NCBI GenBank assembly: GCA_963971425.1
Contig: OZ020518.1
Coordinates: 12,530,190-12,594,189, forward strand
Length of the DNA stretch: 64,000 nt
Reading direction: 5' to 3'
Source: Bryoerythrophyllum caledonicum
Lineage: Eukaryota > Streptophyta > Bryopsida > Pottiales > Pottiaceae
Part shown: piece after piece, positions 1,045 to 63,515 of the stretch
Numbering within the stretch: position 1 is the first letter of the stretch
How the letters are laid out: each line of letters opens with the position of its first letter
Made by a program: the position numbers and the translations under genes
Notes under the pieces: generated by a model
What the model saw: the letters and a program-made list of their open reading frames with translations, nothing else
What the model was told of the DNA's origin: nothing
The model's database searches: none

Positions 1045-2015
1045 CAGTACCTTGGTCAATAAATGATGTGGAGAATATCTCAACCAAAAATCGTTAAAAT
1101 TGCTTGTTTTTGTGCAATTAGCAAGGAAGAAAAAATAAAGATTTTTTTGGTAGTTTTAACCGTAGGATCTCATTAACGACTTATTAAGTAATATGCATAA
1201 AAAATTTCATAAAGTTTCACCGCACGGATTGAAAGATTATAATGTTTGAAGTAGATAAAATGTTCATTTTCTTCCCTGCGTTTATTGGATCAGCAGACTT
1301 TGACTTCAATTTGTGTCGAATTTTTGCACTAAAAAAGGTCTCAGTAAATTACCATAATGTTAGGCATGATGTTAGTTCCTTACATACCAAATTTCAGAGG
1401 TAGATAAGGAGTGTAGCATATTCAAAAAAATCGCGCAATGAGTGGAGGTTTAAAAAATCTCAATTCACGTTATATATTTTTGTGCACTTGATATTGTTTT
1501 AAATGAGAATCCAAATGGTCAATACGGTGGGTTACAACACATAATGCCGTAGGAAAAATCAAAAGTAAATGATATGAAGATCTCAAAGTTTTATGTGGAA
1601 ATGTGGAAGTTTTTTTGGTACCTTGGCCGAAAATGTGTGACAATGTGTGAAAATGATTGACTTGGATTAATATGCTATTTCACCAAAACTAAAAGGATCA
1701 TGCTTAACACATTGATATTGGATTTAGATCTTGTGGAGTGCAAAAATTTGACACGAAGTGAAGTCAAAGTCTTTTGATCCAGTAAACATAGGGAATAAAA
1801 TGAACCATTTGTTTTGTTTCAAACACTATAATCTTTCGATCCGGGCAGTCAAAGTTGATGGAATTTTGTGAATGGGTTATTTAACAAGTTTTAATTTAGA
1901 TCCTACGGTCAAAAGTAGAGATAAAAGTTGATGTTTTTTTCTTTTATACATTGCACTAGAACCAAGGATTTTGAAGTTTATTTTTGAAATCGTCACGGTA
2001 CCTTTGGGGTTAATC
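1045..2015. repeat. Dispersed repeat, copy 1, with an inverted second half
   Basis: Bases ~1050-1690 match ~62880-63510 in the same orientation along most of their length. Shared words include CCGTAGGATCTCA, GCACGGATTGAAAGATTATA, CAGACTTTGACTTCA and GTGTAGCATATTCAAAA. Bases ~1697-2015 are the reverse complement of the first ~330 bp of the same repeat, so this copy is a foldback: forward copy plus partial inverted copy. No protein is encoded. The outer end carries TACCTTTGGGGTTAA, matching the start of copy 2 (TTAACCCCTAAGGTACC) in reverse. It is best described as a non-coding dispersed repeat, possibly a non-autonomous DNA transposon. Confidence 0.7.
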
Positions 2016-2447
2016 ATGATGTTCGTTATTTGTTCATACATTTTTTCAAGTACATGAAGGGTGTTTAATGGAAGAGAAGTAGTACTGAATGGAAATTTAG
2101 GGTTGGAGATGGAAGTGGATTAATTTTTCAATAGTTGATCTTCAATTAAAATGAACAACTTTGAAGTGTTTCTAGAAGGATTTAGATAATGCATTTTGTT
2201 GCTTAACATATTAAACTTTCAAATTATCCATAGTATTGGTTCTACGTACACAAATTTTTGCAAATAGGAAAAAAGTGTAATATATTAAAACAATTGTCCC
2301 TAAAATCAAGGTCTTACCCTAAATCAATACACATTTTCTATTCGTGTGAAATGATCATCTATTAATGTAATTGTCATGCCTTTGTGAAAAAAATCTATAT
2401 ATGAAAGAAGAATCTTATTCCATACTAATAGTGACTATCGTTTTGTA

Positions 2448-3128
2448 ATGATATACAGGTTTTTTGAGTGTTGCGTTATGGCACCACCAAATATTGATAG
2501 AATCTGGGAGAGCCACGGCTGGTGGATCGCGGAAGTGGATGAGTCGAGCGCCTTCTTATGGGTGACGGATTATCCCTTTGAGCTGGGGAAGCGTAAATCG
2601 GCGTTAGGGAAGAGTTTTGGCAAAATCCAGGCAATCACTCTTCGACGTGATGATATGGTATACGTTACTTGCGCAGTGGGTCCAGGTCAATCGGAGGTGA
2701 AGACTTCCCTTTCGAAGAAGTTGCTTCTTGCACCTGTCCCTTTGAATCTTCTTCAAAATCTAGGTCAGGTGAAATTCCTCAAATCATTGCAGACGTTTTG
2801 GTTGAACATCTCTCTTGCGGTACGTACAGCTAGACACAACAACGTCTTAGCCTGTTTAGCGTTATCACCGGAGATGGTGCTGAAGGCTAAGAAGATTATG
2901 GAGGAACATATTAGATATGAAGCATTTCGGGAGAGGGACCCATCACGTGCAACAACTCAAGCCCCACCAGCGGAACCAGAAGAAACAGAAGTTTATCGAA
3001 TTCCTGCTCAGCCGTTGCAACTGGATTGGCGACCACTGGAGGGGGGGAGAGGAAGTGGAGGCCAACATCCCACCACAACTTCTGAGGTACAGACATTACC
3101 GAATCCTCCATTAACCAGTAGACCCTAA
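2448..3128 (+). CDS. N-terminal segment of a ParB/methylase-like gene
   Basis: Open frame of 226 codons. The first ATG is at 2448 and a second in-frame ATG at 2478 (start MAPPNIDRIWE) is at least as likely. It ends at a TAA (3126-3128) and the same frame then stays open to 6128. I do not recognise the fold. The protein begins with a tryptophan-rich segment (WESHGWW) and ends in a Pro/Glu/Thr-rich linker, which fits an N-terminal part of a larger protein rather than a complete one. A possible 78-nt GT-AG intron, 3087-3164 (GAG|GTACAG ... AGAG|GAGATT), keeps the frame and would remove the stop. Otherwise the gene is broken here. About 300 bp of AT-rich sequence with no gene lies between the upstream repeat and this start. 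Confidence 0.5.
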   Translation: MIYRFFECCVMAPPNIDRIWESHGWWIAEVDESSAFLWVTDYPFELGKRKSALGKSFGKIQAITLRRDDMVYVTCAVGPGQSEVKTSLSKKLLLAPVPLNLLQNLGQVKFLKSLQTFWLNISLAVRTARHNNVLACLALSPEMVLKAKKIMEEHIRYEAFRERDPSRATTQAPPAEPEETEVYRIPAQPLQLDWRPLEGGRGSGGQHPTTTSEVQTLPNPPLTSRP

Positions 3129-3147
3129 TCCCTAAACCCTAAAGCAC
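3121..3147. repeat. Telomere-like CCCTAAA sequence within the coding region
   Basis: Two to three degenerate copies of the plant telomere unit (CCCTAAT, CCCTAAA, CCCTAAA) sit exactly where the only in-frame stop of the long gene lies; the stop is the TAA of the first unit. It may be an insertion, for example at a repaired break, or a telo-box-like intron segment. Confidence 0.6.
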
Positions 3148-3149
3148 CA

Positions 3150-6128
3150 GTGCCTACAACAGAGGAGATTGCGAAAGGATCAGTGTGGGGGAATTTTGTG
3201 TTTATGGCACATATGGACCGCATTGTCTCTGTAGAGAATCCGGAAACCAACCACCGGGTTTTATCACAGAAGAGGGTCAGAGAAGTATTCAACCGCTTAC
3301 GAGACCCAGAATCCGCGACTCGGGTGAGTAGATTGGTACTTCGACCGATCAGATACATCGTGCATACTACCACCGATGATGGTGTCGTTGAGAAGGAAGA
3401 GCTGTCATTTCCGTTGGTAGGTACCGCACGAGAATTTGAGCGCATGTTCATTGCACACGGAAGTGCTTCTGCACAGGGTGCCATGGGATCCCAGTATTCT
3501 TGGCTTCAAGATCATATCATTTGGGAACTAGTGGATGGGCAACACATAGTAGCAGCTTGTAAGTTTGCACAGCAGCAGTGGAGAGATGGTACTATGCCTT
3601 TAAACGAGTATCTGGACACGTTTGAGCGGCGGGAGGCCTCTTTTGTGGTGTATGATGATCGTCGCTTTTACATTGAGAAGTCTGCGCGGATCAACGTGGC
3701 GGAGTTCCAGAGACATTCATATTCTACCATGGAGGAGGATTTGAGGAAGATCCGTCAGATTTGGGATCTATACGGGAGGCCTGATAGCACATTACGTGCG
3801 GACGATGCACGCAGGGTAGTTGCTTTGGTGAGTGCGGCAAGTGCAGTGCATAAGTTGCCCAAGGGGGATGGAGTTGTCACGGTGAAGAGGTTGGCCAAAA
3901 ACATGGAGGATCTGACCAATCATGCATGGAATCCGAACAATGACTGCTTCGAAGCTATCATTCAAGTATGCAAGGACTACGAAGACGGCATTCTCTTTTA
4001 CAGCAAGGAGGAAGAGTACAAGTGGAAGGACATGGCGAGGAAGAAAGAGCTGGATCCAAATGTGGACGTACGACCAACAAGAAAGGAGATGACGCAGAAT
4101 TGGTTGAGGCCTCTAGGTAGGGTTCCGAATCCATATTATCTTCGGTTGACAAAGTCTGCTGCAGCGAAGCTGGTGAGGGAGGATGGAGTAAGACCTTCAC
4201 AAGCATATTACTTCGACGGTGTAAAAGACAAGAATCCACATCCTCGTACGATTGCCGGTGTGGTTGACCGATATCAGAGACGAGAAGCTGTGATGAATTC
4301 GATCCGTTGGTTGATGGTGGAGAACAAGGAAAGTACACCTGATTCCATGGAAGAGTTCTTTCGTATCCGTGTAGCGAAGTATTTTCCGAGGAGTAGTGCA
4401 CAACTTGATACCTTTGGGAAGCTTTTGAATGCTGCCACGAAAAAAGCTTGGAGTGCTCCTATGCGGGGGAAGGTGTCTAAACTGGAAGACATAGGCTACC
4501 TCATCCCCCCTTCCATCAGGTTTCATTATGGTGACATTGCAGCAGGGGGGCGTGGATATATTGGACTGTCCGTGGATGTGGGAGAATTGGCTACTGCTAA
4601 TTGGGAATGGCAGATGGAAGTCAAGAGGCCAGGGCAGAGCGACACAAAGAATCTTCTTTCGGTTCGGTGTAGAAGAGGATTATTCCGCACCGACTACATA
4701 GAGTTGGGGAAACCATGTTTGTGGGTGATTGATTGTCGACGTGGCGGTGGGAGGCATGGAGATGGTCATTGGGGAGACGCCCAATTATCCGCAGCTTTTG
4801 CACAGCTGACATTATGGATGGCAAATATTGAACGATGGAACGTCATCTTCTTGTTACCAACGGCTGTGTATGCCAATGAGGAGTTTTTCACGAAGGTGAA
4901 GCTTCCAGAGGGATGTACTATGCGACGTGGATGCTGGGCTTTTGATCCCAACTCGGTTAATCCCTATGCTCTTGATTTTACAGAGAATGGGCGTCTGGAG
5001 CAAGTAGTACAACCGATTGGCGATGTTGTGATTTGTATGCAGCACCCTGTGGGTACATCTCCTGGCCCGAACTATGTTTCTGGAGACGTTCCACTTCCAC
5101 TTGTATTCTTGGATCACTGGAGTGAGGCACGCCAACCCTCTGAAGTTGATTCACTTGAGAGATCTCCATCAGAGCTCGCAAGACTAGTGGGCTCATACTT
5201 GCCCCGTGGTTGGGGCTTAGTGGCGTGTAACATATCTACGGCCATTCTCACGATCCTTGAAGGAGATTTCCAGGGATCTGAGGTTTTCATCATTGACGAT
5301 TGTACAGACAGAGTTTCATTCGTGTACAATGAGTTGTCCGACAATTTCCAAGGACAACTGTTGGTCAGGACTGGTGGAACAAGTACTGGTTGCAACATCG
5401 TACCTGAGACCGTAGATGCGGTTGGTGGAGTGAGGAATGAAGAGGACAATGAGGATGGAGGTGGTTTACATGAGAGATTGCCACGTTTAGGTACCACTGA
5501 AGATTTTTCATCTGGCAGTGATTCAGACGCCGATGAGGATGGAGAGAGAATTCCATCAACACAGCGGACGGTGGGAGATACTTCAGGGGCGACGTCTGCA
5601 ACACCTACAGAGAGGATGCAAGATACAGGTGTAATAGATGTTAGTTTGGCGGCAGGGGCAGGACGGGGGCGTACATTTGATGGTCCTAGGTTGGAGATGG
5701 AGGAAGAAGGATTGGATTCATGTGAATTTTTTTCGGTGCAGAGGAGGATTCGACAGCCTTCGATGCCTCCTCAATCAGAGCCTGTATCGGAGACACAAGA
5801 GACGTTCGGAGGTACTCAGAGTGATACCGGACCAGGTTTGCCTCTCATTCCAAGATCTAGCGTATCTGAGGACATCATTGCATTTCAGGGGGCCTTCTCA
5901 TCAGAGCGAGAGATGTCCTTCAATGCAAAGGATGGCTTTTTCTATAATGATGACAGGGTAAGGCATACGCGGAAGGGTGTTCCTGGCAATTACCGATTTG
6001 TTGAGTGTGCGTCCATTGGCATTGAAGATGTGGGAGATCGTCCAGTGGAGGATCATGAACTATCCGCTATGGTAGGTAGCGCCATTGGACACGTGGAGGG
6101 AGTCGTTCCGCCAGCAGATGAGCTGTGA
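3150..6128 (+). CDS. ParB-like plus degenerate DNA-methylase-like protein
   Basis: Open frame of 992 codons with no intron needed; the first ATG is at 3207, and codons before it join the upstream frame. Numbering from 3150: residues ~60-140 end in WELVDGQHIVAAC, the layout of a ParB/sulfiredoxin-like core (xVDGxHRxxA). A helical segment follows at ~190-450. Residues ~456-735 follow the order of beta-class N6/N4 adenine/cytosine methylases: FHYGDI at 458, a strand ending VIDCRRGGG at 526-534 where DPPW/Y is expected, CWAFDPNSVNP at 595-605, NYVSGDV at 641, ERSPSELARL at 670, and VACNISTA at 691 where DPFxGxGT should be. FIIDD at 713 could be the acidic ribose-binding strand end. Both catalytic motifs are replaced, so activity is doubtful. 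Residues 760-992 are acidic, Ser/Thr-rich and probably disordered. The coding evidence is strong; the domain assignment is inference. Confidence 0.7.
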   Translation: MPTTEEIAKGSVWGNFVFMAHMDRIVSVENPETNHRVLSQKRVREVFNRLRDPESATRVSRLVLRPIRYIVHTTTDDGVVEKEELSFPLVGTAREFERMFIAHGSASAQGAMGSQYSWLQDHIIWELVDGQHIVAACKFAQQQWRDGTMPLNEYLDTFERREASFVVYDDRRFYIEKSARINVAEFQRHSYSTMEEDLRKIRQIWDLYGRPDSTLRADDARRVVALVSAASAVHKLPKGDGVVTVKRLAKNMEDLTNHAWNPNNDCFEAIIQVCKDYEDGILFYSKEEEYKWKDMARKKELDPNVDVRPTRKEMTQNWLRPLGRVPNPYYLRLTKSAAAKLVREDGVRPSQAYYFDGVKDKNPHPRTIAGVVDRYQRREAVMNSIRWLMVENKESTPDSMEEFFRIRVAKYFPRSSAQLDTFGKLLNAATKKAWSAPMRGKVSKLEDIGYLIPPSIRFHYGDIAAGGRGYIGLSVDVGELATANWEWQMEVKRPGQSDTKNLLSVRCRRGLFRTDYIELGKPCLWVIDCRRGGGRHGDGHWGDAQLSAAFAQLTLWMANIERWNVIFLLPTAVYANEEFFTKVKLPEGCTMRRGCWAFDPNSVNPYALDFTENGRLEQVVQPIGDVVICMQHPVGTSPGPNYVSGDVPLPLVFLDHWSEARQPSEVDSLERSPSELARLVGSYLPRGWGLVACNISTAILTILEGDFQGSEVFIIDDCTDRVSFVYNELSDNFQGQLLVRTGGTSTGCNIVPETVDAVGGVRNEEDNEDGGGLHERLPRLGTTEDFSSGSDSDADEDGERIPSTQRTVGDTSGATSATPTERMQDTGVIDVSLAAGAGRGRTFDGPRLEMEEEGLDSCEFFSVQRRIRQPSMPPQSEPVSETQETFGGTQSDTGPGLPLIPRSSVSEDIIAFQGAFSSEREMSFNAKDGFFYNDDRVRHTRKGVPGNYRFVECASIGIEDVGDRPVEDHELSAMVGSAIGHVEGVVPPADEL

Positions 6129-7247
6129 GCCGTGGAGCTATATACTTAGTAGAGCATGCACGCAGTTTAGGTGGCAAGTATGTTAGTATAATGCAGTTTG
6201 AGATGTGTCTATCGTTCGGTTGGTGATATATATTTATATATTGGGTGGTCCATATGATATGTTTGATTTTAGAATTCCTCAACAATAGTGTGGAATTGCT
6301 TGATTATGTATGTTTTTGCATTATAAAATACAGTGAGGTACTTTACACTGTCTTAGGAATTTGCATATATATTTTTGTATCTCTTACACATTGTATTTGT
6401 AGTGCAGTACTCTAAAATCCTATAATAACTCATAACACATTTATAATCTCTTTGGGCACATGATCATAATTTTGTAGCAGGATTTGCAAACTAGAGTAGA
6501 AATCATATATTTTCTAAAAAAAGGTAGCGAATGTAAAAAATATATTACTGATATGAACATAAAGATGCCAATGTATGATACGACAAACACCAAAAAAATT
6601 TGACAAAAAACATTCTGAAATTTTGTCAAATTTTGATTTAAAAAAAAGTTATGAGCAAATAACTTGCGGCTTTCTACCACCAACCAGTGCACTTGGCTAA
6701 GTGCATAATTGCTTAATTGCGTGTTCTAGGAGAAGACATGTTTGTAAGAGATGTTCGAAATGTAATGTCGACTAGATGATTGTAACACATATCACAGTTC
6801 ACAACACACATTTATAAAGTCATTGGGCTATACAGATCACATGCCTAATTTGTTTGAGGGATGATAAGAAGGTGACATAGTTCATGTTGTGTTTATGCAT
6901 TGATACTGAGTGTAGTCTTGTAGCCCACTGTTATAATTTTAGAACGATTTCTGCAATCTTTCATTTCTTGCAAATGAGCAGAATGGCTTCACTCAGTGTA
7001 GGCAAAAAATATAAGTGATTATAAAAAAATTTGTCACCTAATCAAAACTATGATCAACATTTATATAGCTGCAGGCCGTAAAAGCAACAAAGACGGTCCA
7101 AACACAACTCCGATATGCACATTCAATTAAACTGCAAAAACATAACATGAATGATAACTGTACAACGAGATCGAGACACGGAGATTAGGCATCACATGAA
7201 CAGCTCACTTAATCGATTGGAGCCTCTACTTTATGAATACCCGTCTT
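6129..7247. other. AT-rich intergenic sequence, no gene seen
   Basis: About 1.1 kb of AT-rich DNA with frequent stops in all frames. The first few hundred bases probably hold the 3' untranslated region of the preceding gene. I recognise no RNA gene and no transposon end. Confidence 0.5.
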
Positions 7248-43810: not shown

Positions 43811-45871
43811 ATGCGGAGCGGTCTCGCGGGCGCGTGGAAACCGGGCACTTCGAAGCCTGCTCCACGCACGGTCGCGATTGAGGATGTGAACGACGATGCG
43901 AGTTTCGCGGTTCACGCGAGTGTGCAGAAACAGCGGCACCAGCTACCTGTGTATAAGCAGCGGGAGAATGTGCTGTACCTCGTGGAGAATCATGCCACCA
44001 CGATTGTTGTAGGCGAGACTGGGAGCGGGAAGACCACTCAAATTCCGCAGCTTTTGGTCGAGGCCGGGTGGGCGGAAGGCGGCCGGGCCATTGCGTGCAC
44101 GCAGCCGCGCCAGATTGCCGCGCAGACGATTGCCGCGAGAGTGGCGGAGGAGATGCGGGTCACGCTCGGCACGCAGGTCGGGTATTCCGTCCGGTTCGAT
44201 GAAGTTGCAACTCGGGGTGTAACGAAAATCAAGTACATGACGGATGGTGTGCTGTTGCGAGAGATGATGGCGGATCCGTTGCTGTCGACTTACAGCGTCA
44301 TTATGGTGGACGAAGCGCATGAACGCAGTATTGCGACCGATGTTCTTCTTGGGCTTTTGAAGAAGATCATCAGGCGACGCCCGGAGTTGCGTTTGATCGT
44401 TGCTTCTGCTACGATGGACACTCAAGCTTTTCGTGACTTCTTTGACACCAGCGGAGAGAAATTGCGACTTGGAGAGTCGTCGTTGCCCAGTCGAACTCCA
44501 GCCGTGCTGTTGGTTGAGGGAAGGACACACTCGGTACTTGTACATTACAGTGACGAACCGGTGAAGGACTATCTCCAAGCCGTGGTCTCCACGACTATGT
44601 CTCTTCACAAGAATGAAGCCCCGGGCGACATTTTAGTGTTCCTTACGGGCCAGGATGACGTGAATGCGGCTGTGCAAATGATTAGTGAGGAGGCCGAGAA
44701 GTTACCACGTGCTTTGGTGGTCTTTCCTCTCTATGCAGGGTTGCCTGCGTCTGACCAGGAGCTTGTCTTCCGGCCTTCGTTATCCTCACGGCGGAAGGTT
44801 ATTTTGGCCACGAACATTGCAGAGACGTCGGTCACTATACCTGGGATTGTGTATGTGATTGACAGTGGTTTTTCGAAGCAGAAATTTTACAATCCCGTCA
44901 CCAATGTTGAAGCATTGGTTGCAGTCCCTATTTCTCAAGCCTCAGCTGAGCAGAGGGCTGGACGAGCAGGTCGTGAACGTCCGGGAAAATGCTTTCGCTT
45001 GTACACTGAAGAAACCTTTGCGACCATGAGGCCAGAGGGTGTGCCTGAGATTCAGAAGTCGAATCTCCTGTCGACAGTACTGCAACTGAAAGCGTTGGGA
45101 ATAGACAATGTGATGCAGTTCGATTGGTTAGCGCCACCGCCTCCCGAGTGCATGGTCAGGGCACTAGAAATCCTATATGCACTTGGTATTATGGATGACT
45201 ATGCCAAACTCACCTCACCGCTCGGTTACCAGGTTTCAGAGCTTCCACTTGATCCCATGTCAGCGAAGATGTTGCTCACTGCAGCGGAAATTGGGTGCCT
45301 GAAAGAGGGTCTCACGATGGCCGCTGTGATGTCGGTCCAAACGATCTGGGCATCTGGCAGGGAGAGGAAAGAGATGGACGAAGCTCGTGGACAATTCGGA
45401 GTTGCTGAAGGGGACATGGTCTCTTACTTGAATGTTTATGAAGGATATTTGGGAGCGAAGAACCAGGGGCGGTGGTGCTATGCAAATTGCGTCAACTATC
45501 ACGCCATGGCGAAGGTTGCGAAGGTGAGGTCCCAGCTCAGCAGGCTATTGCAGCAACTTGGTGTCAACAAACATGCACAGCGTGACGACGACGATGTGAA
45601 GCTGGTTACAAAGGCAATCACAGCAGGTTTTTTCTCCAACGCAGCCCGACTTGAGGCGGAAGGTGGGAACAAATACTGGTCTTTGAGGGGCAATCAGGAA
45701 CTGTTTATACACCCTTCCTCTGTTTTGTTCAGAGTTTCACCCAAGTGGGTGGTCTTCCAGTCAATTATTTTCCTGGAGCGCTATTATATGTGGAATGTCA
45801 CGGCCATTGACTCAGCATGGCTTTCGGAATCGGCCCCTCATTTTTACCGGCTTGGTCGGGGCAGAGGTTGA
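43811..45871 (+). CDS. DHX35: DHX35-type DEAH-box RNA helicase, intronless
   Basis: Single-exon frame of 686 codons. Motif I GETGSGKTT at 68-76, Ia TQPRQIAA at 97-104, II DEAH at 167-170, III SAT at 199-201, V region TNIAETSVTIPGIVYVID, VI QRAGRAGR at 381-388, then winged-helix, ratchet and OB-fold parts ending near DVTAIDSAWLSE-type text (here NVTAIDSAWLSESAPHFYRL). N-terminal FW/WKPGT-type start, length and C-terminus match DHX35 (about 700 residues), a helicase of catalytic spliceosomes. The N-terminal MRSGLAGAWKPGTSK fits that family, supporting the chosen ATG. Other host genes nearby are spliced, so lack of introns suggests a retrocopy or lineage-specific intron loss; the frame is fully open and likely functional. 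It starts 49 bp after the PHF5A-like stop. Confidence 0.95.
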   Translation: MRSGLAGAWKPGTSKPAPRTVAIEDVNDDASFAVHASVQKQRHQLPVYKQRENVLYLVENHATTIVVGETGSGKTTQIPQLLVEAGWAEGGRAIACTQPRQIAAQTIAARVAEEMRVTLGTQVGYSVRFDEVATRGVTKIKYMTDGVLLREMMADPLLSTYSVIMVDEAHERSIATDVLLGLLKKIIRRRPELRLIVASATMDTQAFRDFFDTSGEKLRLGESSLPSRTPAVLLVEGRTHSVLVHYSDEPVKDYLQAVVSTTMSLHKNEAPGDILVFLTGQDDVNAAVQMISEEAEKLPRALVVFPLYAGLPASDQELVFRPSLSSRRKVILATNIAETSVTIPGIVYVIDSGFSKQKFYNPVTNVEALVAVPISQASAEQRAGRAGRERPGKCFRLYTEETFATMRPEGVPEIQKSNLLSTVLQLKALGIDNVMQFDWLAPPPPECMVRALEILYALGIMDDYAKLTSPLGYQVSELPLDPMSAKMLLTAAEIGCLKEGLTMAAVMSVQTIWASGRERKEMDEARGQFGVAEGDMVSYLNVYEGYLGAKNQGRWCYANCVNYHAMAKVAKVRSQLSRLLQQLGVNKHAQRDDDDVKLVTKAITAGFFSNAARLEAEGGNKYWSLRGNQELFIHPSSVLFRVSPKWVVFQSIIFLERYYMWNVTAIDSAWLSESAPHFYRLGRGRG

Positions 45872-58944: not shown

Positions 58945-60426
58945 ATGGAGACGCACGACGATGTGGAGCAGTTCCAGTGTATCATCTGTTTGGAGCTCGT
59001 GTACAAGCCGATCGTGCACGCATGTGGCCACCTATTTTGTTTCTGGTGTGTGCACAGGGCCATGGACGGCGCGTACAAGAATCTGTGCCCTCTCTGCCGC
59101 CGACCCTACATGCACTTCCCGCGCATCTGTGAGCAACTGCACTTTGTCCTGCTCAAAGCCGTGCGCGACAAGTACCTGGTGCGGGCCAAAGAGGTCCAGG
59201 AGGAGGAAGCGCAGGGGGGCATCTTCTCTCCCGAGATTCAATTGCAACCGCCTCGCATCATCACAAACATGCGGCTCGACGTCATGATGGAGGAAGCGTC
59301 CTCGACTAGCACCGACACTGCGATGTCTTTCGAAAGTGCCTGCCTCTCGACTTCGTCCAGCAGCAGCAACGACGACCCAAACCCGAACCTCATGGTCTCT
59401 TCCAAAGGCAAGGCGCCCATGCCTGAGGAAGGGGGAGGAGCATTTCCTGCAGAGGAGTTGCCTGGGGAGACTGAGGACATCGCGCCGCCAGACTTCAGCG
59501 TGACGACCCTCGACCTGGCTTGCTTGCACTGCGGCAACCTGTTGTACCGACCGTTGGTGTTGAACTGCGGCCACATGTTTTGCGAGCACTGCGTGGTGGT
59601 CGGTGACGACAACGCCGTCAGCTGCCCCTCGTGCAAGGCAGAACATCCGGGGATGTTCCCGCAGGTATGCTTAGAGCTCCACCACTACATCGACCGAGTT
59701 TTCCCTCTCGAGTATGCGCAACGGTCTCTGCAAGTGGCCACGGAGGAAAGGGAACGACCCCCCAACCGACCGCCGCTGCCTCCGTCAGAGCCGCAGCAGG
59801 ACTTGTTGCTGAAGAGCCAGATCAGGAGATGCCTGCCGGGACCAGTGCACCGCGCCGTCGGCTGCGACGGCTGTGGCATGATGCCCATCATCGGGAAGCG
59901 CTTCAGGTGCCAGGACTGCCCCGAGGCCATCGGCTTCGACCTGTGCCAGAAATGCCATGAATCTGGCTGCGTCGTGGGCAGGTTCAACCAGCGCCACACG
60001 CCTGAGCACCGCATGGAGGAGGTCCGGCTCCCCAGCCGCGGCATCGCACGCCAGCTCCTGGACGTGATGGCGAACCGCAGCATCAACCTCCTGGACTTTC
60101 GTGCCAACGACTGCAACGAGGCCGAGGCGCTGCAGATCTTGCTCATGCAGCACCGCCTCGGCAGCGAGAGTAACGGGTTGGAATCGTCCGCCGCTCAAGC
60201 TGCTGCTCCATCTGCTGTCGAGGAGATCACCGACGACGCTCTGCAAGACGGCGGTGATCATCACGAAGCGTATGTTTTGCACGACGGCGACGATCACCAC
60301 GAGGCTTTCATGCTCAGCCACGGGGAAGACGGCGGGTTCGACGACCCCGACGATGAGAGCGAGTTCGAGGCTTTCAGCCGCGACGACGAGGACATGGATT
60401 TTTTCCGCGTTGTTTTCCACTCGTGA
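58945..60426 (+). CDS. PRT1: PRT1-like E3 ubiquitin ligase, two RINGs plus ZZ
   Basis: Single-exon frame of 493 codons from METHDDVEQF. RING 1 (Cys12, 15, 27, His29, Cys32, 35, 48, 51: QCIICLELVYKPIVHACGHL), a Ser-rich linker (115-160), RING 2 (Cys193, 196, 208, His210, Cys213, 216, 227, 230) and a ZZ finger (about 301-358: Cys307, 310, 322, 325, 334, 337, His351, 355). This order and the phrases YKPIV, FPRICEQL, VLNCGHMFC and RFNQRHTPEHR are those of Arabidopsis PRT1, the N-recognin for proteins with aromatic N-terminal residues in the plant N-degron pathway. All zinc ligands are present. The C-terminal ~90 residues are very acidic and carry a doubled DGDDHHEA unit. Codon use is strikingly GC-rich compared with the AT-rich flanks. 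Confidence 0.93.
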   Translation: METHDDVEQFQCIICLELVYKPIVHACGHLFCFWCVHRAMDGAYKNLCPLCRRPYMHFPRICEQLHFVLLKAVRDKYLVRAKEVQEEEAQGGIFSPEIQLQPPRIITNMRLDVMMEEASSTSTDTAMSFESACLSTSSSSSNDDPNPNLMVSSKGKAPMPEEGGGAFPAEELPGETEDIAPPDFSVTTLDLACLHCGNLLYRPLVLNCGHMFCEHCVVVGDDNAVSCPSCKAEHPGMFPQVCLELHHYIDRVFPLEYAQRSLQVATEERERPPNRPPLPPSEPQQDLLLKSQIRRCLPGPVHRAVGCDGCGMMPIIGKRFRCQDCPEAIGFDLCQKCHESGCVVGRFNQRHTPEHRMEEVRLPSRGIARQLLDVMANRSINLLDFRANDCNEAEALQILLMQHRLGSESNGLESSAAQAAAPSAVEEITDDALQDGGDHHEAYVLHDGDDHHEAFMLSHGEDGGFDDPDDESEFEAFSRDDEDMDFFRVVFHS

Positions 60427-62869: not shown

Positions 62870-63515
62870 ACCCCTAAGGTACCAAGACAGTTTTACACCA
62901 AAAACACTTCAAAATTGTTGGATTCTAGTGCAATGAATAAAGAAGGAAACCAAAAAAAATATTTTTAGTTCTGACCGTAGGATCTCAATAAAGGCTTATT
63001 AAGTAATACATGTACAAAATTTCATAAACTTTGACCGCACGGATTGAAAGATTATAGTGTTTGAAGTCAAGCAAATGGTTCATTTTCTTCCCTGCGTATA
63101 GTGGATCAACAGACTTTGACTTCACTTGGTGTAAAAAATTTTCATTACACAAGGTCTAAATCTATTACCATCTTGTTAAGCATGATGTTAGCTCCTTACA
63201 CACCAATTTTTAGAGGTAGAGACGGGGTGTAGCATATTCAAAACAAGTGTGCAAGGAGTGGAGGCTCGAAATTTGTTAATTCACACTTTAATTTTTTTTG
63301 AACTTAATATGTTTTTGATTAATAATCCGAATGGTTGATAAGAAGGTTTACAGTACATATTGTTGTGGAAAAAATAAAAAGTGAAAAATATGAAGATCTC
63401 TAGGTTTTATGTGGAAAAGAAGAAGTTTTTTTGGTACCTTGCCCGACAATGAGTGACAATGTGTGAAAATGTTTGACTTGGGTTGGTATGCTATTTTTTA
63501 CTAAAGACAAGAACT
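62870..63515. repeat. Dispersed repeat, copy 2
   Basis: This copy matches 1050-1690 in the same orientation and, in reverse, 1697-2015. It begins TTAACCCCTAAGGTACC. About 300 bp to its right (63803-63823) an inverted-looking TTGGTCCTATAGGGGTTAA occurs, so the full element could end near 63823, giving about 950 bp, similar to copy 1. It is non-coding. Confidence 0.65.

Follow-up and report, generated by a model that had tools for sequence, protein, structure and literature searches.

The 64,000-nucleotide stretch of the moss Bryoerythrophyllum caledonicum analysed here (contig OZ020518.1, hereafter the window) carries at positions 3150-6128 of the plus strand an open reading frame (ORF) of 992 amino acids (aa), which is the 3′ part of a longer gene, here called gene B. 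Gene B belongs, as an accessory gene, to a plant DNA transposon of about 14 kb that was active recently and whose other gene, gene A, encodes a protein with the domain DUF7869. The full reading that we favour, to which we give a probability of about 0.42, adds that the product of gene B would be a degenerate, non-catalytic descendant of ParB/methylase proteins, which would bind DNA and might counteract silencing in the manner of VANC. An earlier note on this DNA had suggested a ParB/methylase-type DNA-binding pseudoenzyme or the product of an unknown mobile element, and the second suggestion was borne out by terminal inverted repeats (TIRs), target duplications, a partner gene in divergent orientation and many almost identical copies located at different sites.

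The genome searched for gene B was the one containing the window (437 Mb, 894 contigs). At least 46 copies were scored, out of 1724 candidates, with 93-100% identity and alignment over nearly the whole ORF length; in 28 of the 46 the aligned stretch is free of stops. Twenty of them, mostly chosen as intact, were fetched with their flanks and compared together with the window copy, 21 in all. A common right end, CATAATTGCTTAATTGCGTGTT, is found in all 21 (window 6704-6725; one mismatch in L019 and L020), and the flanks beyond it differ. Five copies (L009, L012, L021, L022 and L024) were extended 8 kb further upstream. The inverse of the right end was found at the left in three of these (L012, L021 and L024), giving elements of 13.7-14.4 kb, while no left end was found within the extended stretch of L009 and L022. 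The TIRs are perfect over 27 bp in all three copies for which both ends are available, and the target duplications comprise 4 bp in two of them (TTGT in L021, TGTT in L024) and 5 bp in the third (ATCTG in L012). The element is a cut-and-paste (TIR) DNA transposon of about 14 kb. A 4-bp target site duplication is typical of the Sola1 superfamily, considered below.

Comparison of the closest copies revealed recent movement. L016 and L017 show no difference over about 4,550 bp from the start of gene B to the right end, and two sites differ in each of the pairs L009/L010, L016/L018, L017/L018 and L023/L024 over the same length; the 3′ flanks are different in every pair. As near-identical copies (0-2 differences in ~4,550 bp) have different flanks, the element moved recently, and segmental duplication was rejected on this ground. 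Phage or bacterial contamination was rejected too, many copies being on contigs of 20-65 Mb.

Gene A (1063 aa) lies on the left side of the element, on the minus strand and divergent from gene B, in all three complete copies. The L024 copy, which was the one tested, matches PF25273 (DUF7869) with an E value of 1.3e-50. The blocks VDGMDQ, QADNC and GHTHEDID, with D509/D512, D591 and E630, are invariant among the three copies, which are close relatives, and may represent a DDE-type catalytic core; gene A is probably the transposase of the element. Among the matches listed, DUF7869 occurs 7.0-10.3 kb upstream on the opposite strand for at least 25 of the 46 gene B copies, within 15 kb downstream for none, and solely on the same strand for none; for 21 copies, including that of the window, no DUF7869 match is among those listed, and gene A was not found in the window by DNA comparison. 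At least 150 matches to DUF7869 were scored in the genome (of 3610 candidates) and none in 14 control genomes. The matches have open frames of several sizes, many of 1044-1092 aa, suggesting that several transposon families of the DUF7869 kind reside in this genome. No mention of DUF7869 was found in the literature searched, which covered few subscription papers.

The structure of gene B became evident from the intact copies, and its features in the window, together with those of the element around it, are as follows.

693-892, no strand: assembly gap of 200 N upstream of gene B.
1392-1739, plus strand: unit resembling the L021 monomer (84%), upstream of gene B.
2413-2477, plus strand: short leader (TACTAAT ... 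ATACAG|G), alike in 21 aligned copies.
2478-6128, plus strand: gene B, damaged copy, in the same frame as 3150-6128; one frame of 1314-1321 aa in intact copies.
2478-3128, plus strand: first piece of gene B, 216 aa, closed by the in-frame TAA at 3126-3128 that the filler supplies.
3124-3140, no strand: telomere-like filler CCTAATCCCTAAACCCT, 17 bp, in place of 311 bp (L009 3194-3504).
3150-6128, plus strand: ORF of 992 aa described in the earlier note, position exact.
3516-3563, plus strand: ParB-box-like motif IIWE[P]VDGQH[IV]VAA.K, I or V taking the place of the Arg in the GxxR of canonical ParB.
4731-4760, plus strand: DCRRGGGRHG, at the place where motif IV (DPPY/W) of a beta-class methylase would be; a resemblance without profile support.
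5154-5243, plus strand: LERSPSELARLVGSYLPRGWGLVACNISTA, resembling the stretch from motif X to motif I of beta-class methylases; again a resemblance without profile support.
6699-6725, no strand: right TIR AAGTGCATAATTGCTTAATTGCGTGTT; the element ends at 6725.

In 18 of the 21 copies the frame that starts at the counterpart of the ATG at 2478 extends over 1314-1321 aa, the exceptions being L012, L014 and the window. The true start of gene B is the ATG at 2478. The GTG at 3150 was rejected as a start, since the upstream ATG is in frame and the intervening TAA lies in the deletion filler; the earlier note had only the 3′ part of the gene before it because the filler supplies this TAA. The 311-bp deletion with its filler is absent from all 20 other fetched copies. 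The filler consists of plant telomere-like CCCTAAA units, apparently telomere-type filler at a break. The leader resembles the end of an intron in the 5′-untranslated region, with branch point and 3′ splice site. WELVDGQHIVAAC was confirmed at residues 125-137 of the ORF, and the remaining segments quoted in the earlier note are present in the quoted order. Some residues are damage peculiar to the window copy, which differs from the majority at 22 of 992 residues, 13 of these differing from all 18 intact copies compared; for instance, the L of WELVDGQH is P in all 18. The copy in the window is damaged and dead. Positions 1-692, left of the gap, gave no match to the other fetched copies in DNA comparison, and the window copy either has no left half or is wrongly scaffolded there. 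The 200-N gap upstream of gene B recurs in all five extended copies, between the two genes in the three complete ones. AAACCCTA-type tracts were seen beside it in several copies, and something there defeats assembly.

Gene B is kept under purifying selection. Among the 18 intact copies, the ratio of nonsynonymous to synonymous differences (pN/pS) has an overall value of 0.261, with 0.147 for the ParB-like and 0.179 for the methylase-like part; by region it is 0.164 for columns 1-200, 0.579 for columns 200-340 (a linker), 0.201 for columns 560-780 and 0.517 for the tail. Broken copies were excluded and the pairs are not independent, so that these values are descriptive. A similar calculation with three copies of gene A gave 0.24. 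The ORF is far from chance: almost its full length is covered in the alignments with at least 46 genomic copies, and purifying selection acts on the intact ones.

Two sister families allowed a broader comparison. L035 adjoins L014 and L034 adjoins L019, and both are broken by frameshifts or stops. Their identity to L009 is 67% and 68%, respectively, in the ParB-like part, and 62% and 60% in the methylase-like part. Together with the 18 intact copies and the window, L034 and L035 make up a set of 21 sequences representing three families. In this set, VDGQH[IV]VAA and [DE]C[RQ][RH]GGGRHG are present in all 21, while [DNS]PP[YFW], FxGxG and VDGQHR, standing for the beta-class motif IV, motif I and the arginine of GxxR, occur in none. 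What the earlier note described as a replacement of motifs is not simple decay, as these two boxes are kept throughout. NISTA is found in 18 of the 21 and is not kept letter for letter in L034 or L035.

The combination of genes in this element has a published precedent. Sola1-1_Ec32, a giant Sola-1 transposon of Ectocarpus, carries on the opposite strand a gene of 1104 aa for a ParB plus N4/N6 DNA-methyltransferase protein, and transposons with ParB/methylase-like accessory genes have been described in brown, green and red algae; the authors suggested self-modification for the algal proteins (PMC12477816). The moss element shares with Sola1-1_Ec32 the nature of a large DNA transposon, a second gene of 1.1-1.3 thousand aa opposite the transposase and the joint presence of ParB-like and methyltransferase-like parts. 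It differs in that it resides in a plant-like genome, in that gene B has no detectable profile match to either domain and no catalytic motifs, and in that the element has 354-bp tandem monomers. The match between the two is one of layout. A Sola1 of Physcomitrella is named in a table of PMC9033089. Phage and bacterial ParB-methylase fusions (seven phage proteins, e.g., phi29862 and L044) have the two-part layout proposed in the earlier note, and for one such ParB domain, that of Bce_0392, nicking activity is reported (PMC5512222); unlike gene B they comprise 404-422 aa and keep the catalytic motifs, and they gave no significant profile match to it. DPPY and D[PL][FC]xGSG are present in all seven and GxxR in five, the arginine being absent from L051 and L052. 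As two of seven phage ParB-methylases also have no such arginine, its absence alone does not exclude gene B. KDZ and other fungal transposons (PMC12730594) are DNA transposons too and likewise carry a gene linked to DNA modification, in their case TET/JBP, which encodes a different accessory enzyme. No report of a ParB/methylase-like accessory gene in a plant transposon was found in the literature searched, again with subscription papers mostly outside it.

In the favoured reading, gene B would descend from the algal-type ParB plus N4/N6-methyltransferase accessory proteins, would have lost the ParB arginine together with the catalytic and S-adenosylmethionine (SAM) motifs of the methylase, and would now encode a non-catalytic, sequence-specific DNA-binding protein. 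Its likeliest targets would be the 354-bp tandem monomers upstream, which diverge between subfamilies, and/or the terminal repeats. Bound there, the protein could shield the promoter region against silencing through cytosine methylation by the host, the part that VANC plays in VANDAL elements, and/or could help to assemble the transposase at the element ends. The hypothesis of a repeat-binding anti-silencing factor was prompted by the diverging tandem monomers upstream of gene B, which parallel the targets of VANC: in the VANDAL elements of Arabidopsis these are rapidly diverging tandem repeats (PMC5735166, PMC10398659). Both cases involve a non-transposase protein of a plant DNA transposon and non-coding tandem repeats that vary between related copies. 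VANC belongs to another transposon group, and the likeness is one of description. The monomers measure 354-356 bp, with 1-7 full units seen per copy (some arrays leave the fetched stretch or enter the gap). L009 and L011 are 98.8% identical in the gene region and 82.5-84.5% in their upstream parts; L013 and L015 compare with L009 as L011 does, and across the three pairs the gene region is 98.5-98.8% identical and the monomers are 82-85% alike. L010, L012, L014 and the window carry the upstream version of L009, at 97.4-99.95% identity.

Several results weigh against the favoured reading. Sequence searches with gene B in Pfam, NCBIfam, PHROGs and the PDB gave nothing relevant; a weak PHROG match of unknown function (E 0.37) was dismissed, and a match of a gene B fragment to DNA_pol_alpha_N (E 0.0038, 17.7 bits with a cut-off of 26) is below threshold and was taken as chance. 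No relatives were confirmed in viral_contigs with the window protein, gene A, A3 and A4 as queries, none was found in prokaryote genomes with A3, and the phages yielded only five weak rows, the best with E 0.3. Profiles of the gene B regions (4 rows) were compared by HHalign and HMMER with seven phage ParB-methylases, nine methylases, three single ParB-like proteins, 15 single other proteins and two reversed sets; two of the 15 decoys (PrmA and a cytosine methyltransferase) are themselves methyltransferases. Nothing rose above the decoys for the ParB-methylases, the methylases or the ParB-like proteins. Column shuffles matched the observed score in 42, 101, 66, 109, 80 and 120 of 120 cases in the methylase tests, and in 97 and 56 of 120 in the ParB tests. 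The comparison with the ParB and methylase families, one of the grounds on which the earlier note had let its pseudoenzyme stand or fall, gave no match above noise. The same set-up recovered the methylases from the C-terminal part of the ParB-methylases (8e-39) and YbdM from their ParB part (2.4e-5); a single-sequence control, YbdM with two phage ParBs, was missed (0.11 and 0.02). The negative for gene B is a weak one because the query alignment is shallow and this control missed known ParB pairs. Moreover, L035 has an altered motif-I-like stretch and L034 none that is recognisable. Binding of gene B to the monomers, or an effect on methylation, is proposed by analogy. Monomer-like sequence is also found outside the elements, at window 63146-63496 (~79% like the 354-bp monomer) and in the flanks of several copies, for which reason the monomer need not be a dedicated target, and its divergence could reflect an exchange of 5′ regions between subfamilies.

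An accidental likeness to ParB and methylases is nearly as probable as the favoured reading, both being short of even odds; gene B would then encode a lineage-specific transposition cofactor with some unrelated fold, such as a second subunit of the transposase for binding the element ends. All profile tests stayed at noise although the alignment-based controls work, and the canonical motifs are missing from every one of the 21 sequences, which agrees with this explanation. It is opposed by the motif-like segments standing in order, by the VDGQH[IV]VAA box in three families and by a comparable published element, Sola1-1_Ec32, with exactly ParB plus methyltransferase opposite the transposase. 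To the eye the order of segments resembles that of ParB and methylase proteins, a resemblance that the numbers do not bear out. It is solely this precedent, which raises the odds, together with the kept VDGQH box, that makes ParB/methylase ancestry still likely. The pseudoenzyme of the earlier note, and with it a degenerate ParB/methylase as the product of gene B, is plausible without being proven.

Alternatively, enzymatic activity may persist in the product of gene B: its active site would have been rebuilt around DCRRGGGRHG and VDGQH, and it would modify the DNA of its own element as a methyltransferase or nuclease. The atypical sites, kept in three families 60-68% alike and under purifying selection, suggest more than scaffolding, and self-modification was proposed for the algal proteins by the authors of PMC12477816. 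On the other hand, the known catalytic and SAM motifs are absent, and the motif-I-like stretch is lost in L034 and altered in L035, though both copies are broken; we consider an enzyme improbable. A captured or domesticated host gene, merely duplicated, has almost no probability left. Nothing was found in its favour, and the TIRs, the target duplications, the different flanks of near-identical copies and the recurrent divergent partner refute it for this family. Finally, the favoured reading may be sharpened into a bacterial-type ParB-methylase taken up by the DUF7869 lineage and turned in plants into a catalytically dead DNA reader that would recognise the 354-bp repeat array of its own element and guard it against silencing, which we hold to be unlikely in this specific form.

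Some neighbouring features were noted by eye. RNase H-like and reverse-transcriptase-like minus-strand ORFs (L033 3-1373 and L024 7079-9989) flank the L024 copy on both sides, and this copy seems to sit inside a long interspersed nuclear element (LINE). Within the window, an intronless DEAH-helicase-like ORF lies at 43811-45871 and a double RING/ZZ-type ORF at 58945-60426.

DUF7869 is a domain of unknown function. Placed in an element that has inverted repeats and target duplications and has moved recently, it probably belongs to a transposase gene, and this placement also gives the partner gene B a context. With the moss element, the range of transposons that carry ParB/methylase-like accessory genes would reach from algae to a plant, here with the catalytic motifs missing. 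Whether such proteins work through DNA modification or through DNA binding against silencing becomes a testable question. If the dead-reader proposal were true, a high-copy transposon family that was active recently would have reached anti-silencing by a new evolutionary route.

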